Source: Natrinema halophilum (lineage in GTDB: Archaea; Halobacteriota; Halobacteria; Halobacteriales; Natrialbaceae). From it: 64,000 nucleotides of DNA. Shown piece after piece: positions 53,270-61,851 of the stretch. Positions within the stretch are counted from its first letter, which is position 1; the number at the start of each line of letters is the position of its first letter. The notes under the pieces were generated by a model, which had not been told where the DNA came from, ran no database searches, and saw only the letters and a list, made by a program, of their open reading frames with translations. Made by a program: the position numbers and the translations under genes. Location of the stretch: contig NZ_CP058601.1 of the NCBI RefSeq assembly GCF_013402815.2, positions 2,852,001-2,916,000 on the forward strand, read 5' to 3'.

Positions 53270-53614
53270 TCAGAGGACGATCGTCACCGGGACTGACGCC
53301 CGCCGCGTAACTCCTTCCGCGACGCTACCCAGCAGCATCCGCGAGACGCCTGCCTTGCCTTCGCCCCCCATTACGATCGCGTCGACACCCGCATCCGACG
53401 CGTACTCGAGGATCGAATCCGCCGTTCCAGCCCCTTCGACGACGGTTGTCTCGACCTGTCGATCGTACTCGTCGGCTACCCATCGAACGTCGGCGAAGAA
53501 CTCAGGTTCTGGATCTGCGGCCGCTACACTGCCATAGCTCGCCTCGAGGTCGCTGATCACGGAGAGGAGCGTCCCAAACCCAGATCCCTCCTGTTGAATC
53601 GCTTCCGGGCCAGT
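53270..53614 (-). pseudogene. 5'-truncated universal stress protein (UspA)
   Basis: The minus-strand frame after a stop at 53615-53617 reads TGPEAIQQEGSGFGTLLSVI and continues through VEGAGTADSILEYASDAGVD to the nucleotide motif MGGEGKAGVSRMLLGSVAEG and VPVTIVL. The N-terminal strand and helix (about 40 residues of a 145-residue family) are missing and no ATG starts the frame. A GTG at 53560 could initiate a 96-residue product, but it would lack the first part of the fold. It is probably a decayed gene. Confidence 0.65.
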
Positions 53615-53720
53615 TTAGGGAGAATATCGGAACGGAATATAGACCGCCGGCAGAATTTTCTACGGCGTTAACTAGTGGAAACTTTTAATAATAATAGCCT
53701 GGAATTATCAGCTGCCGACA

Positions 53721-54581
53721 ATGGCTGAGAAAAATAAAAACGACGGATTCAGCAGAAGAAGTGTACTGCGAAAGACCGCTGCGAGCGCGGCCACAGTGAC
53801 GCTCGCTTCGGCCGCAAACACCGCCTCTGCAGAGCAGGGAACTCCCGATTTCGAGGTCGTAAATCAAACTGAACTCTCAGACGACCGGGTGCAGACCGAA
53901 TTTGGTCACCTATTGGAGTCGTCTGCGGTCCAGAATCTCGATCGGGCGATCCAGGCGGAATCGGACGTCGAGGTAGCCGGACGGTTCGGGATCCAGTTCG
54001 AAACTGACGATCCTGAAATAAACAAAACGGACCCGGTGATCCTCTTTGGCGGATACCGGCCTGACCAACCCGGGCGGGAGGCCGCTGGGATGTTGGTTTC
54101 GATCGTTGTCGATACGACCCCAGACGAGGAAACGAGCACGAGAGAGCCAATGATGGCGTTCGGACGGACGATCGACTCACCGAACGAAAAGCGGGTGTCG
54201 GTGAGTTCGCATTCGGCGGGCGACTTCGAACTAAAGACGATCACCGCTGATGAACAGGGAACTGCGTCGGTGGTTCAGCGCGAACCGGTTCGAAATCCGG
54301 TTGCCGACGGCTCATCGGATGCCGACGGTGGCGTGACTACGCAGGACTGGCGAGACGCACTCGGCTGTGGTGCGTGCACTGCCATCGTCGGGACGCTCTG
54401 TGACGGTGCCACCGGCTCCGTTTCCCGGTATGCGTGTCTGGAAGCCTGCGCACCCTTCCTCGGAAGCGTGTGGGGATACGGTGCCTGTGGCGGCGCATGC
54501 TTCGTGATCGTTGATGCGATCAATAACTACGGCTGTGCGGTCGGTGCCGGGACTATCTGTGCCGGAATCGACGTCTGTTAA
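53721..54581 (+). CDS. halocin C8-like precursor (ten-cysteine C-terminal peptide)
   Basis: A 286-residue exported precursor built like ProC8 (283 residues) of halocin C8. It has a Tat signal (FSRRSVLRKTAASAATVTLA, cut likely after NTASA). A polar acidic middle of about 170 residues corresponds to the immunity part HalI. The C-terminal peptide of about 78 residues starts near DWRDALGCGACTAIVGTLC and ends GTICAGIDVC. It has ten cysteines and many glycines, as in the 76-residue halocin C8 with ten cysteines, which ends in a similar C-x5-C. ATAATA-rich TATA-like sequence lies at 53684-53693. Activity and processing site are inferred. Confidence 0.85.
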   Translation: MAEKNKNDGFSRRSVLRKTAASAATVTLASAANTASAEQGTPDFEVVNQTELSDDRVQTEFGHLLESSAVQNLDRAIQAESDVEVAGRFGIQFETDDPEINKTDPVILFGGYRPDQPGREAAGMLVSIVVDTTPDEETSTREPMMAFGRTIDSPNEKRVSVSSHSAGDFELKTITADEQGTASVVQREPVRNPVADGSSDADGGVTTQDWRDALGCGACTAIVGTLCDGATGSVSRYACLEACAPFLGSVWGYGACGGACFVIVDAINNYGCAVGAGTICAGIDVC

Positions 54582-54614: not shown

Positions 54615-54956
54615 TTACTCGTCGACAATGCGCACGCCTAGTAACCCACCGCCGACGAGCCCCAGATAAAGTACGTTTGTGAATGCGTTGGCGCCCATCC
54701 AGACGAGGTAGCACCCATAGCCACCGCCAATGACGAGAAGGATGGACGCTATCATGGGAGTCGCCTGCTGTCTCCATTGATATGCTTCGCTCACTCCATA
54801 CGTTAGTATCGCAGCCTGAACAAGAATTTGAAGGCCGAATTCCGCCTGTTCACTCCCAACAAGCAGTGACCCGAGTACGAGCGCGACTATGACGATTCCA
54901 AAGCCTATCTTCACGGTTGATTTCGTGCTCGTCATCAATCCATCTGCCATTTCCAT
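54615..54956 (-). CDS. four-helix membrane protein next to the halocin-like gene
   Basis: A 113-residue protein with hydrophobic segments at about 15-33, 40-56, 66-84 and 89-107. It is convergent with the halocin C8-like gene, 33 bases between stops. In-frame ATGs at 54956, 54950 and 54935 all have TATA-like sequence upstream, so the start is uncertain. No domain is recognised. The position suggests a role in halocin immunity or export, but this is inference. Confidence 0.65.
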   Translation of the reverse strand: MEMADGLMTSTKSTVKIGFGIVIVALVLGSLLVGSEQAEFGLQILVQAAILTYGVSEAYQWRQQATPMIASILLVIGGGYGCYLVWMGANAFTNVLYLGLVGGGLLGVRIVDE

Positions 54957-55112: not shown

Positions 55113-55562
55113 ATGCAACTACGGTTCGATGGTACTATGGTCGGGTTGAATAGGCGCATCGTATTCGTCTGGACTGTGTATCTCCTCGTCATTTCTGCCA
55201 TCATGTATGGTTCGCTGCGCGTCCTGCAATCGTCCGTGACCTCGATTTCAGCGACCGTGACTATCGTCGTCCCCGGAGTCAGTTTCGTCATCGGACTCGC
55301 CTATCTAATGCTTCAGTATCGATCCTGGGACGTCATGATGCAAGACGAGGAACTCCGCCTTCAACGTGGCGTCCTCCGGACGAAACAGACGTTTATTCCC
55401 TACAAGCAGATACAGCATATTGACGTGGAAGCACGACCGCTCGAGCGGGTGTTCGGACTGTCCCGTCTCGTCGTCTACACGGCCGGTACACCGCGTTCGG
55501 ACCTGGTGGTCCCCGGACTCGACTCGAGCGATGCGCTCGTGCTTCAGGAGAAGTTGTCATGA
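55113..55562 (+). CDS. bacterial PH-domain membrane protein, YdbS-like
   Basis: A 149-residue protein with two membrane segments (about 15-37 and 45-67) followed by a bPH_2 domain: DEELRLQRGVLRTKQTFIPY, KQIQHIDVEARPLERVFGLS and a TAGT motif. It overlaps the next gene by four bases (ATGA). The size and arrangement match YdbS of the Bacillus subtilis ydbST pair, which gives resistance to a Bacillus bacteriocin. The nearby halocin C8-like gene makes an immunity role plausible but unproven. Confidence 0.85.
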   Translation: MQLRFDGTMVGLNRRIVFVWTVYLLVISAIMYGSLRVLQSSVTSISATVTIVVPGVSFVIGLAYLMLQYRSWDVMMQDEELRLQRGVLRTKQTFIPYKQIQHIDVEARPLERVFGLSRLVVYTAGTPRSDLVVPGLDSSDALVLQEKLS

Positions 55563-57028
55563 AGGAACGGACGATACCCGACGGCTCGAGGCTCCACGTC
55601 AGGTCGATCGTTTGCCGTGCGATGGACGACATGAGTCGATCAGTCGTCCTGGTAACGGGCGTCTTGTTCGTGTACCAGGACGGGGTTCGCAATCTTCGTT
55701 ATCTGCTTCCGTTCGTCCTCCTGTACTTTCTCGCAGCAGCGCTGTGGGAGAGTCTCTACTGGTATCGATTCACCTACCGCGTGACGGACGAAGACGAGAT
55801 AAGCATCCGCTCCGGCGTGCTTCGGCGTCGTCACCGCACGGTTCCATTCGGTCGGATCGAGCACGTACGGCTGCTCGAATCCCCCGCGAGCCGTCTGTTC
55901 GGCGTTACCGGCGTCCACTGCGAGACCGCCGGAACGCGAGATAAAAGCGAAGTCAAACTCCGATACGTCTCTCCGGAGACGGCGAGCCGGCTGCGGAAAA
56001 CGCTCGAGTCGAGCCGTCTCGATCGGCCACACGAGTCTCGTTCGGACGAAACGCGGTTATACGACCTCTCGGCGCGCCAGTTAGCGGCGTACAGCCTGCT
56101 CAGAATCCATTACGCCCCGGTGATCTTCGCGGTCGGAACCGTCGTTTCGATTGCGGTCCTTCCGTTCGAGGCGACGGCCTCGCTCGATGCGCTGGTCGTT
56201 ACGTCCGTCCGGTCTGCGCTTCCCGCCGGCTTTGGACTATCGAAGTGGGGAGTATTGATCGTTCTCGCGATCATCGCTGGCTGGGTCGTCGGTGCCGCCC
56301 GGACGGCAATTAGACTGTATGGATTTCAACTCACGCGCGATGACGGCACGCTGTACCGACGTCACGGACTCCTCACTCGAGTCGAAGAAGAGATCCCGAT
56401 CGACAACGTCCAGATCGTCCGGTGTAGTGACAACCCGCTCGTTCGAGCCTTCGGGCAGACGGAACTCGAAATCCAGACGGCGGGTGGAAGCGAGATCATG
56501 CCGTTCGACTCGAAGACGACGCTCGTTCCGTTAGCGCCTCGCGCAGACGCCGAGGAAATCGCACGACTGATCCTCCCCTTTGACCTCGACGATGCGGCGA
56601 CCATCCCGAAATCCGCACGGAAGCGATACGTTGTCCGGTATCTGCTGGTCGTGGTGCTCGCTCTCTCTGCGACAGTCTTCGGTCGGGATTATGCCGCTGC
56701 GCTCGCATCGATCCCGCTTGCTGCGTACGCTATTCCGATGTTAATGGTACCAGTCGCGGCACACGTTCGCTGGTCCAGTATCTCGTATACCTTCGGAACA
56801 GACCATCTTCGGATTTGTAACGGGTTCTGGCGACGGCGGGAGTACATCCTGCCCTACCGAAACGTACAGCGGTACACCGTCTCACAGACTATACTGCAGC
56901 GCCGTCACGATCTCTCGACGCTGCGGATCGAAACGGCCGCATTTCCGCTTTCGATCGGTGCGAGTGTCCCCGACATGGATACTGAAACCGCGATAGGATT
57001 CGGTGATCGATTGCGCAGGCACCTGTAA
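55559..57028 (+). CDS. multi-PH-domain membrane protein, YdbT-like
   Basis: A 489-residue partner of the preceding gene, with three bPH_2 units each behind a pair of membrane segments. The units show the repeated pattern I(S/R)SGVLRRRHRTVPFGRIEHV, LYRRHGLLTRVEEEIPIDNVQ and LRICNGFWRRREYILPYRNV, followed by phi-FG-type turns and ETAGT, QTAGGS or ETAAF. This is the YdbT architecture. Translation is coupled to the YdbS-like gene by an ATGA overlap. It acts in the cell membrane; molecular function is unknown. Confidence 0.87.
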   Translation: MKERTIPDGSRLHVRSIVCRAMDDMSRSVVLVTGVLFVYQDGVRNLRYLLPFVLLYFLAAALWESLYWYRFTYRVTDEDEISIRSGVLRRRHRTVPFGRIEHVRLLESPASRLFGVTGVHCETAGTRDKSEVKLRYVSPETASRLRKTLESSRLDRPHESRSDETRLYDLSARQLAAYSLLRIHYAPVIFAVGTVVSIAVLPFEATASLDALVVTSVRSALPAGFGLSKWGVLIVLAIIAGWVVGAARTAIRLYGFQLTRDDGTLYRRHGLLTRVEEEIPIDNVQIVRCSDNPLVRAFGQTELEIQTAGGSEIMPFDSKTTLVPLAPRADAEEIARLILPFDLDDAATIPKSARKRYVVRYLLVVVLALSATVFGRDYAAALASIPLAAYAIPMLMVPVAAHVRWSSISYTFGTDHLRICNGFWRRREYILPYRNVQRYTVSQTILQRRHDLSTLRIETAAFPLSIGASVPDMDTETAIGFGDRLRRHL

Positions 57029-59262: not shown

Positions 59263-59382
59263 TATTGGTGGATTTGTTCTAATATACTAAAATCCTTATT
59301 ATATAAACTATCTACAGTTATATACAAAATCATCTTTTGAATATAACACTCGAAACTAGATCAGATGATCCTGAAACGTTTG

Positions 59383-60349
59383 TCAAGTCTCTATTCCGGA
59401 ATCAATGGTCCAGGAATCTGTATCACTACCTCCATCTCTCCCGAGAAGTTTTGAATATGGATATCCATCGTAGGCTGATACACCAATCACCGGCGCAAAA
59501 TGTTCCATATGGCCCTGTATATACGAAATATACCTCTCTTGAAATATATTGTCTTGAGGACCAGTCTTTCCAACCCGGTCAATTTTCTCCCATTCATCAA
59601 CTTTACCATCATAAGACATGAAGTATGTAGTGTGTTTTGGGCTGTGTTTGTTTCGAGTGTTATAAATTCTTCCTCCTTTGTTATCTATCCTCCAATCCCA
59701 ATAGATTTTATGCTGCCATCTAAATGTAGTTGAGCCTAAAAGGCTGTTTTCTTCAACTATATTTGCATAGCTATCACTTCCTCTGCGTGCTGCAGTTCTA
59801 ACAGTCTGTGATCTGTTTGTTGTCACACTATCTTTCCATAGATCATTTTTTTTGATAAAGAGCGAGCGATTCTTGGTTATCTTCGTTTATGAGTTGTTCC
59901 ACATTATCTCTGTTCCATTTTAGAGAGCCAATCGTATTATTATCGTTCACATCTCTTCGATTGCTTTGTGTCCTCATTCTTGATGTGGCAATTTTGTTAC
60001 TTCTAACCATCTCAATTGGGTCCAATGATTCCAACTGATTGCGGCGGCCAGAAGCACGAATTTCATATATTACAGTTTCAGCGGGCCTGTTGAATATCAT
60101 TATTGCATTCTGTTCTTTTTCTGAGAGATTTTCCTCAAGTTCCTCACGTTCGTCTTCTTCACACTCCCGGTATTGCCTTATGAAATCATATACTTCTTCA
60201 AACCTATATGGGTTAAAATTGCGATAATCTTTGTTTTCGGCCATAACTTTCCCAGATAGTGAGGTGAAAGCGGTCATAACTGATGCCAAGGTAATAATAG
60301 CACCTCTTCGAGTAATTCTATCCATCATACTATGAAGTAGATTAAACAT
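59383..60349 (-). CDS. secreted protein gene split by a homopolymer frameshift
   Basis: The first frame (start ATG 60349, TATA-like TTTAATATT about 27 bases upstream) gives a signal with TRRGAIITLASVMTAFTSLS and then an acidic part (ECEEDEREELEENLSEKEQN). It stops at 59843 right after a run of eight A residues (plus-strand T run 59846-59853). Dropping one A would join it without a stop to the second frame, which reads VTTNRSQTVRTAARRGSDSY, STTFRWQHKIYWDW and YFMSYDGKVDEWEKID. The joined product is about 320 residues. The gene is AT-rich compared with its neighbours, suggesting transfer. Family unknown; it could be a toxin- or halocin-like exported protein. Confidence 0.65.
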
Positions 60350-60580
60350 GGTAATAAGCTTTGCTTTTGAATACAATATTAAAATCAATTATTTATATTA
60401 TGGGTAAAAATGTGAATACATCTCACAAAGGGTCCCCGATACTTAAAAAATTCAATAGTTGTTGCGTTTAGTTACAATGTCTAACCGAACTCGAGGTTCT
60501 AATGAGAACGTGATCAAGAGATACCGATTGGTAAGAAAACAGTGTCTCAACCACAGATAGACAAACCGGTACGTAAACTA

Positions 60581-60634
60581 CCCTACCCTATTTCGCTCGG
60601 GGGCAATGGCCCCACTCGCTCGTTGAGGGTAGGG
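60581..60634 (-). repeat. right-end hairpin of the tnpB element
   Basis: CCCTACCCT pairs with AGGGTAGGG across a 36-base inner part that itself contains GGGG...CCCC and repeated CGCTCG words. It lies 21 bases downstream of the tnpB stop. In IS200/IS605 elements the 3' end of tnpB and this flank form the guide RNA scaffold and the element end. Confidence 0.6.
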
Positions 60635-60654
60635 CTTTCGCGTGGACTCCCGTT

Positions 60655-61851
60655 CTACGCCGCATCAGCGGCGGGAAGGTCGTACTCTCCACTCACGTTC
60701 AGCGTCCCGCGATTCAAGCGCACGTCTACAGGTTCGCCTCCGTCGTCTGCGTTTTGCCGACGTCGGGGATACTGAAAATCGATGTTCTTTGCCGTCGCAA
60801 AGTCGCTGCACGACTTTGGTGCCTGTCGGATGTAATCCGATGACCGCGTTGTAGTCGGCGTGGTTCTGGTAGCCGCAATCCTGACACTCGAAGTCCTCGC
60901 CGCGGCGGTTGTCATCGTGGGTAAACCCACAGTCGAACACCGTTTCGACGTGTTCCGTGGGTCAACTTGGACGGCTTCGACGCCCTGCTCTCCGGCTTTA
61001 TATACGACGTACTGATAAAGACGACGGAACGCCCACAGATGGTGTCACGAGGCTTCTGGCACGTTCTCACGAATGTCGGTCAGGTTCCCGAACACGATAT
61101 GCGCACAGGTGTGAGTGAGAGCTTCGGCCACGATTTCGTTGGCGACACGATGCAGGAATATCTCGAAGCGACAGTCCGCTTTGCGCTCTACGCCTGCTAT
61201 CGCGTCGTGTTCGGCCCGCGTCCCGCACTGCTGGAGGTCGCCACGCTGCTTCTCGTACTCTCGCTTCCAGGGGTTAAACTCGTCTGCCGACCAGAACCGT
61301 CCGGTCGATGCGACTGCGAGTTGATTCACACCGAGGACTGTTCTGTGCTCGGTGGTGGAATTGGTGTCGCCGTCCTCTTTGAGCATCGACGCATGAAGAT
61401 ACCAGTCACCATCACGTCGGTGGAGTGTCGCCCGCCGAAACTCGTAGTCCTCGTTGGCGACGTACTTCGTCGGCGATTTTTCGACGTCGTCGGGAAGAAT
61501 GTACTCGCACTCGATACGTCCGTTCACGGTTGATAGCGAACCGTGGTTGCGGTGGAACGTGGCGCTTCGCTTGTCGTAGACGACGGTATCAGCCGTGAAC
61601 GTCGGACGAGACGTATCTTGGCCGTTCTTGAGGCGTTCGACGCCGCTCTTGACTGATTCGACGGCTTGGCGAATCCCCTTCTGGATGAGATTCGCGGTCA
61701 ACTTCGTGTTCTCACGTAGCTGGTCGTACAGGCCGCGTTCGGCCTTGGCTTTCGATGTGACGTGGTAGCCGTCGTCTCCGTGCCAGCACCACTCGCTCGC
61801 GGTGTTGGCACAGTATTTATCAGAATGAGTGTGTGGCAGATCGTCCGACAA
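60655..61851 (-). pseudogene. tnpB: inactivated TnpB (IS200/IS605, IS1341-type)
   Basis: The main frame 61851-61045 shows the TnpB N-terminus (SEWCWHGDDGYHVTSKAKAE, LTANLIQKGIRQAVESVKSG) and the wedge region with TFHRNHGSLSTVNGR. RuvC-I is damaged: VLGVNQLAVASTG lacks the usual GVDxN aspartate and several residues. RuvC-II reads HIVFGNL with Gly for the catalytic Glu. A TGA interrupts at 61045 and the frame continues HHLWAFRRLYQYVVYKAGEQ. A missing base then breaks the zinc finger (CSTCGFTHDD, CQDCGY), and a further shift leads to the C-terminus DLPAADAA. RuvC-III HADYN survives. It is dead as a nuclease. Confidence 0.88.

Follow-up and report, generated by a model that had tools for sequence, protein, structure and literature searches.

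The halocin C8 family is said to have been greatly expanded by Makarova et al. in 2019, and a helix-loop-helix of HalI, the immunity part of the halocin C8 (HalC8) precursor, is reportedly required for immunity, according to Mei et al. in 2008. To our knowledge, the fold, the disulfides and the target of halocin C8 are still open. Among halocins, halocin C8 is nonetheless described as the one best understood in molecular terms: its 283-aa precursor, ProC8, is exported by the Tat pathway and then yields HalI and the 76-aa halocin C8 (PMC11509114). The active fragment is C-terminal (PMC11509114; PMC12893001), and the activating protease is described as unidentified (PMC12893001). The latter paper also reports that HmHapP (HFX_0892) of Haloferax mediterranei is cut by a halolysin, which frees an N-terminal killer. 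In Enterococcus, deletion of ddE or ddF, which are PH-domain genes, stops export of the leaderless enterocin DD14, and DD14 then poisons its producer (PMC8657885); the two products measure 135 aa and 458 aa, respectively (PMC7332713). YdbST protects Bacillus against amylocyclicin (PMC8144471), and a saposin-like fold is common to circular and leaderless bacteriocins (PMC6072434).

We analyzed a window of 64,000 nucleotides from Natrinema halophilum (NZ_CP058601.1, positions 2,852,001 to 2,916,000), in which a preliminary description had pointed out a 286-residue Tat-exported protein resembling the halocin C8 precursor (Table 1). The open reading frame and the Tat-type signal were both confirmed: the motif S-R-R-S-V-L-R lies near residue 11, and R12, R13, and L16 are invariant across 10 relatives. 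The distance between the putative promoter and the ATG would imply a nearly leaderless transcript. Comparison of the precursor with TIGR04449 (NCBIfam, halocin C8-like domain) gave 30.7 bits (E 4.7e-7; residues 216-286; model positions 1-69 of 69), and the peptide domain alone scored 34.9 bits, where the curated cut-off is 24 bits. The domain is C-terminal within a precursor that bears the Tat motif, and 16 of the 18 members of the window-type subfamily score above the cut-off; in Pfam, no family covers the protein. Since the match exceeds the curated cut-off, the precursor is a divergent member of the named family, which upholds the halocin C8-like identity first proposed for it, and the NCBI annotation pipeline is expected to name the gene halocin C8-like. 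Among 29 congeners, an ortholog occurs in G376; it is 66% identical, and its genomic context is conserved in part. The peptide dS of 0.9 against a dN of 0.05 in this pair indicates a real gene and not a chance reading frame. Between the window gene and this only close ortholog, the peptide is 90% identical (dN/dS 0.05) and the N-terminal domain 58% identical (dN/dS 0.30), so that the peptide is the conserved part; it is under strong purifying selection.

Table 1. Features at the halocin locus, in coordinates of the window.
Feature	Position	Strand	Basis or remark
Universal stress protein gene, 5'-truncated	53270..53560	-	Left edge of halocin-bearing segment; 178-aa relative, G392 L271:6091-6627
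BRE/TATA promoter, archaeal-type, TGGAAACTTTTAATAATAAT	53676..53695	+	26-45 nt 5' of ATG; read from sequence
Halocin C8-family precursor gene	53721..54581	+	ATG 53721, stop ends 54581, 286 aa
Tat signal peptide, residues 1-37 (SRRSVLR ... ASA)	53721..53831	+	Sequence
N-terminal domain, residues 39-208	53835..54344	+	Related by profile to HalI region in HalC8-type precursors
V-T-T-Q motif, residues 205-208, putative site of processing	54333..54344	+	Motif recurrence before peptide
Candidate mature peptide, residues 209-286, 78 aa	54345..54578	+	TIGR04449 match, framework comparison, dN/dS 0.05
113-aa membrane protein gene, convergent with halocin gene	54615..54956	-	Present beside halocin in G376 (L065)
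bPH_2 protein, YdbS-like, 149 aa	55113..55562	+	PF03703 E 4.4e-15
bPH_2 protein, YdbT-like, 489 aa, three bPH_2 domains	55559..57028	+	PF03703 E 5.5e-44, 3 stretches

The preliminary description had placed ten cysteines in the last ~78 residues, and indeed all ten cysteines of the precursor fall within its last 71 residues (216, 219, 227, 239, 243, 256, 260, 272, 280, and 286), a clustering with a chance of ~8e-10 at an assumed 0.8% cysteine rate; the protein ends in C-x5-C, as does HalC8. The computed mass, pI, and GRAVY of the candidate mature part are 7.6 kDa, 4.05, and 0.85, and those of the 76-aa tail of a HalC8-type 283-aa protein (locus L123) are 7.4 kDa, 4.14, and 0.89. The likeness of the cysteines to those of HalC8 stood for their number and outer positions and failed for the four middle ones: the window peptide has the near-palindromic spacing 2-7-11-3-12-3-11-7-5, whereas that of HalC8 is 2-7-3-7-13-7-8-8-5. 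Comparison of the peptides of 69 precursors revealed two main patterns, framework A (that of HalC8) and framework B (that of the window). Conserved spacing was thus found among the homologues, across a coherent subfamily that has framework B in common, though it is unlike that of HalC8. A profile of framework A peptides aligned with one of framework B peptides at a probability of 93% (score 38.3 vs. at most 20.5 in 100 shuffles), which shows the two to be related. Judged by its sequence, the window gene encodes a true halocin C8-family member whose conserved cysteine framework differs from that of HalC8, and its peptide, with a computed mass under the 10 kDa that bounds the growth-inhibiting microhalocins, is predicted to be a new microhalocin.

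Quantification of cysteine losses in 25 framework-B peptides revealed that C1 and C10 were both absent in 8 and C5 and C6 both absent in 5, with no single loss of C1, C10, C5, or C6; in one framework-B peptide (G362), C1 and C10 were displaced together. Among 40 framework-A peptides, C3 and C8 were both absent in 4, and one (G231, L118, G231:C64:38043-38240) is without C3, C4, C7, and C8, its six cysteines reading C-x2-C-x19-C-x11-C-x23-C-x5-C. In a short form (G208, G043), the C5-C6 loop has ~4 residues instead of 12 and all cysteines are kept. Because the cysteines vanish in pairs, we hypothesize that five nested disulfides (C1-C10, C2-C9, C3-C8, C4-C7, and C5-C6) would close a helical hairpin rung by rung. 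The support for this is modest, since one event on the tree suffices for each framework-B double loss, which leaves few independent observations, and since three single losses occur in framework A (C1 in G391, C4 in G192_C2, C6 in G018). Repeated independent origins of the framework-B losses were considered and rejected, as the tree requires one event apiece. A single-sequence AlphaFold model showed four helices (pLDDT 58), and a Foldseek search with this model returned nothing at E<1. Membership of the saposins by sequence was likewise rejected: the Pfam saposin models matched none of 38 peptides, and a PDB sequence search that included the solved saposin chains gave no match.

On the far side of the 113-aa membrane protein gene lies another locus that may protect the producer or export the peptide, one absent from the preliminary description, namely a tandem of a one-domain and a three-domain PF03703 protein with TM-like segments, that is, a YdbS/YdbT-type bPH_2 pair, whose genes overlap by 4 bases. 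When the neighbours of 61 halocin loci were compared over 5–10 kb on each side, with a Pfam check, bPH_2 genes adjoined the halocin gene in eight, 96-531 bp away: the window, the G376 ortholog, the second copy of the window genome, G091, G192, and G181 (framework B), and G357 and G025 (framework A). Unbiased clustering of all neighbours again placed bPH_2 among the largest clusters. The remaining 53 loci, including that of HalC8, are without a bPH_2 neighbour. HalC8-type loci have other genes where the window has its bPH_2 pair: a regulator with an HVO_A0261 N-domain and a FilR1 middle domain stands beside the halocin gene in ten of them (e.g., L123:9129-9938, minus strand) and likely controls halocin production, and a membrane protein of ~534 aa that no Pfam family covers, often accompanied by a ~70-75-aa membrane protein, lies near the gene in eight (L123:10469-12073, L081:12464-14068, L120:4497-6119, and others) and is a candidate exporter or immunity factor.

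The bPH_2 pair could instead be a general membrane-stress module at accessory-gene insertion sites, unrelated to the halocin. Pairs of the same clade do stand at six other positions, all in genomes that belong to the same family, with no halocin detected nearby, and a search beside these pairs for hidden cysteine-rich neighbours found none, so that the link between the pair and halocins is not exclusive. At the place that corresponds to the window locus, congener G392 has no halocin gene: its stress-protein gene is longer, the membrane protein (72%) and both bPH_2 genes (86% for the large protein) are present, and similarity to the window ends at 53573 and restarts at 54622; G296 has the 113-aa membrane protein without halocin or bPH_2 pair. 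These sites indicate that the halocin gene comes and goes and that the pair can persist alone, and they mark the locus as a site of gene gain; the orphan pair in G392 would also fit a retained means of self-protection, as self-protection genes often are retained. Against an unrelated module stands the position of the pair, which is the immediate neighbour, with at most one gene between, in all eight loci despite the distance searched. Moreover, its orientation to the halocin gene varies (convergent, divergent, or co-directional), implying separate arrangements, of which six of the eight look independent, against an estimated ~0.3 adjacencies in 61 expected by chance at ~six bPH_2 loci per genome. 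We therefore rate the unrelated module as somewhat improbable, and the pair probably serves self-protection or export of the halocin. A text search of the literature for halocins together with bPH or YdbT, whose reach ended short of the 2019 work of Makarova et al., found no link between them among the papers listed. We also weighed whether the 113-aa membrane protein confers dedicated immunity and rejected this, as the protein occupies the same chromosomal place in the halocin- and bPH_2-free G296; it is probably a site resident and not halocin-specific. Further along the window, positions 59337-61851 form an island with AT-richer unusual ORFs (59383-59826, minus strand; 59843-60388, minus strand, with a Tat-like start) that adjoin fragments resembling IS200/IS605 TnpB.

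Sampling of 391 genomes from the class placed members of the TIGR04449-type family in 48 of them, spread over 28 of 86 genera, and relatives were found by sequence search in 7 of the 29 congeners. The window genome (4.84 Mb, 3 contigs) has a second halocin copy, 27% identical and ~174 kb away. Congener G004 encodes a 283-aa precursor with a 76-aa ten-cysteine tail, the published sizes of ProC8 and halocin C8, and the letters of this tail match what we take to be the HalC8 sequence. Proteins of Halorubrum, Halobacterium DL1, and DL31 align over 84% of the window protein at only 26% identity, and those of them that were read (G027 and G003) have exactly the cysteine spacing of the window. The Halorubrum trapanicum relative, annotated 'halocin C8-like domain-containing protein', is plasmid-borne, whereas the window gene is chromosomal. 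Framework-B genes of equal match score were seen in Halobacterium sp. DL1 (CP007061, where the copy is unannotated), halophilic archaeon DL31 (CP002989), and Halorubrum trapanicum (NZ_AP017570); the occurrence of such copies on replicons of three haloarchaea, the two that were read being nearly identical, suggests recent horizontal transfer. Two framework-B halocin genes lie 8.5 kb apart at L096 (G319:C1:1591205-1591753 and 1599880-1600584), and the first of them seems to be interrupted where its N- and C-terminal halves meet. Single-protein scans of genome contigs and viral contigs revealed no relatives, and phage records yielded none; the alignment of the divergent family was too variable for scanning, and a DNA pattern of the cysteine spacing lacked specificity when run across every genome, picking up unrelated bacteria.

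This distribution bears on whether the ten-cysteine domain might belong to a secreted, disulfide-stabilized TIGR04449 protein with a non-antimicrobial role at the surface, in signalling, or in DNA uptake. The family name derives from one characterised member, no framework-B member with activity was found in the literature, and the strong purifying selection that acts on the peptide contrasts with the way toxins often diversify; in addition, a tie to DNA uptake has been reported for halocin H4 (PMC6759562). However, presence in so few of the congeners and sampled genomes is patchy in the manner of a bacteriocin and not of a housekeeping protein, and the plasmid copies across three genera, the presence or absence of the gene at its locus, and the bPH_2 neighbours also speak against such a role, which we consider unlikely.

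Next to the predicted antimicrobial peptide, the precursor would carry its own immunity part. Comparison of the N-terminal domain with framework-A N-domains (hhalign) gave a probability of 80-89% and a score of 44.7, whereas 100 column shuffles reached at most 13.5, the aligned block being the N-terminal stretch of the domain; the homology was invisible in profile comparison with the HalC8 orthologs alone and needed the wider framework-A family as a bridge. We infer from this homology that the domain may confer immunity. In 17 of 65 precursors, the motif [VL][ST][TAPVS]Q stands within the 30 aa that precede C1, where ~0.017 per precursor, or about one in 65, would be expected at the rate seen in the rest of the precursors. 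The V-T-T-Q of the window is close to the point at which HalC8 has to be cleaved (283 minus 76 residues), and we propose that it marks the processing region, in which cleavage would take place. An active N-terminal part has a precedent in HmHapP (PMC12893001), yet here it is the peptide that is better conserved (90% identical to the ortholog, against 58% for the N-terminal part), and the peptide belongs to the family of HalC8, in which the active fragment is C-terminal (PMC11509114; PMC12893001), making this arrangement very improbable. A decayed, non-functional relic, to which the truncation of the adjoining stress-protein gene might point, is scarcely credible given the intact reading frame, the promoter, the ten cysteines, and the peptide dN/dS of 0.05.

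The reading we favour, and regard as likely, is that the product of the gene is an antimicrobial precursor of the halocin C8 family. It would fold and then be exported by the Tat pathway, and a protease would cut near V-T-T-Q to release a hydrophobic, acidic ~78-aa peptide. The nested disulfides would shut this peptide into a helical hairpin that may attack the membranes of related haloarchaea, while the N-terminal domain would shield the producer, a role that the literature gives to HalI. In the framework-B subfamily the adjacent bPH_2 pair would probably also protect, and may instead or additionally aid export. The TIGR04449 halocin C8-like family itself is already known, named and curated; new here are the framework B spacing, the N-half homology, the dN/dS of peptide and N-terminal part, the bPH_2 adjacency, and the retention of the pair without a halocin in a congener. 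The second conserved framework, with its co-vanishing cysteine pairs, yields a testable disulfide map, and the role of the bPH_2 partner is testable in genetically tractable haloarchaea.

Set against the known systems, the locus is closest to halocin C8 of Natrinema-type haloarchaea, with which it shares a Tat-exported precursor (283 vs. 286 aa), a HalI-like N-terminal part, a ten-cysteine C-terminal peptide (76 vs. ~78 aa) of similar mass, charge, and hydrophobicity, and the outer C-x2-C-x7-C ... C-x5-C; the middle cysteines differ (7-3-7-13-7-8-8 vs. 7-11-3-12-3-11-7). HmHapP is likewise a secreted haloarchaeal precursor activated by proteolysis, but its active part is N-terminal and no cysteine framework is reported in the available text of its source. 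Saposin-like peptides of the NK-lysin type are alike in length, helical prediction, first C-x2-C, last C-x5-C, and nested disulfide logic, and the saposin cysteine layout is resembled by the six-cysteine pattern of the framework-A peptide of G231. The leaderless bacteriocins of the enterocin DD14/aureocin A53 type and the circular ones of the amylocyclicin type are also small, hydrophobic, and helical, and their bPH_2/PH-domain pairs match in size (135 and 458 aa vs. 149 and 489 aa in the window). They are without leader and cysteines, whereas the window precursor combines a Tat signal with a large pro-domain and could form five disulfides, and we claim no sequence relation. The bPH_2 pair beside several halocin genes points to a means of self-protection or export that these archaeal loci would, in principle, have in common with bacterial bacteriocins, and we tentatively suggest that the locus may represent a distinct archaeal bacteriocin type, a disulfide-laddered helical hairpin of near-palindromic ten-cysteine framework with a HalI-fused Tat precursor and a dedicated bPH_2 pair, which would have converged with those leaderless bacteriocins of bacteria that depend on bPH_2 proteins.
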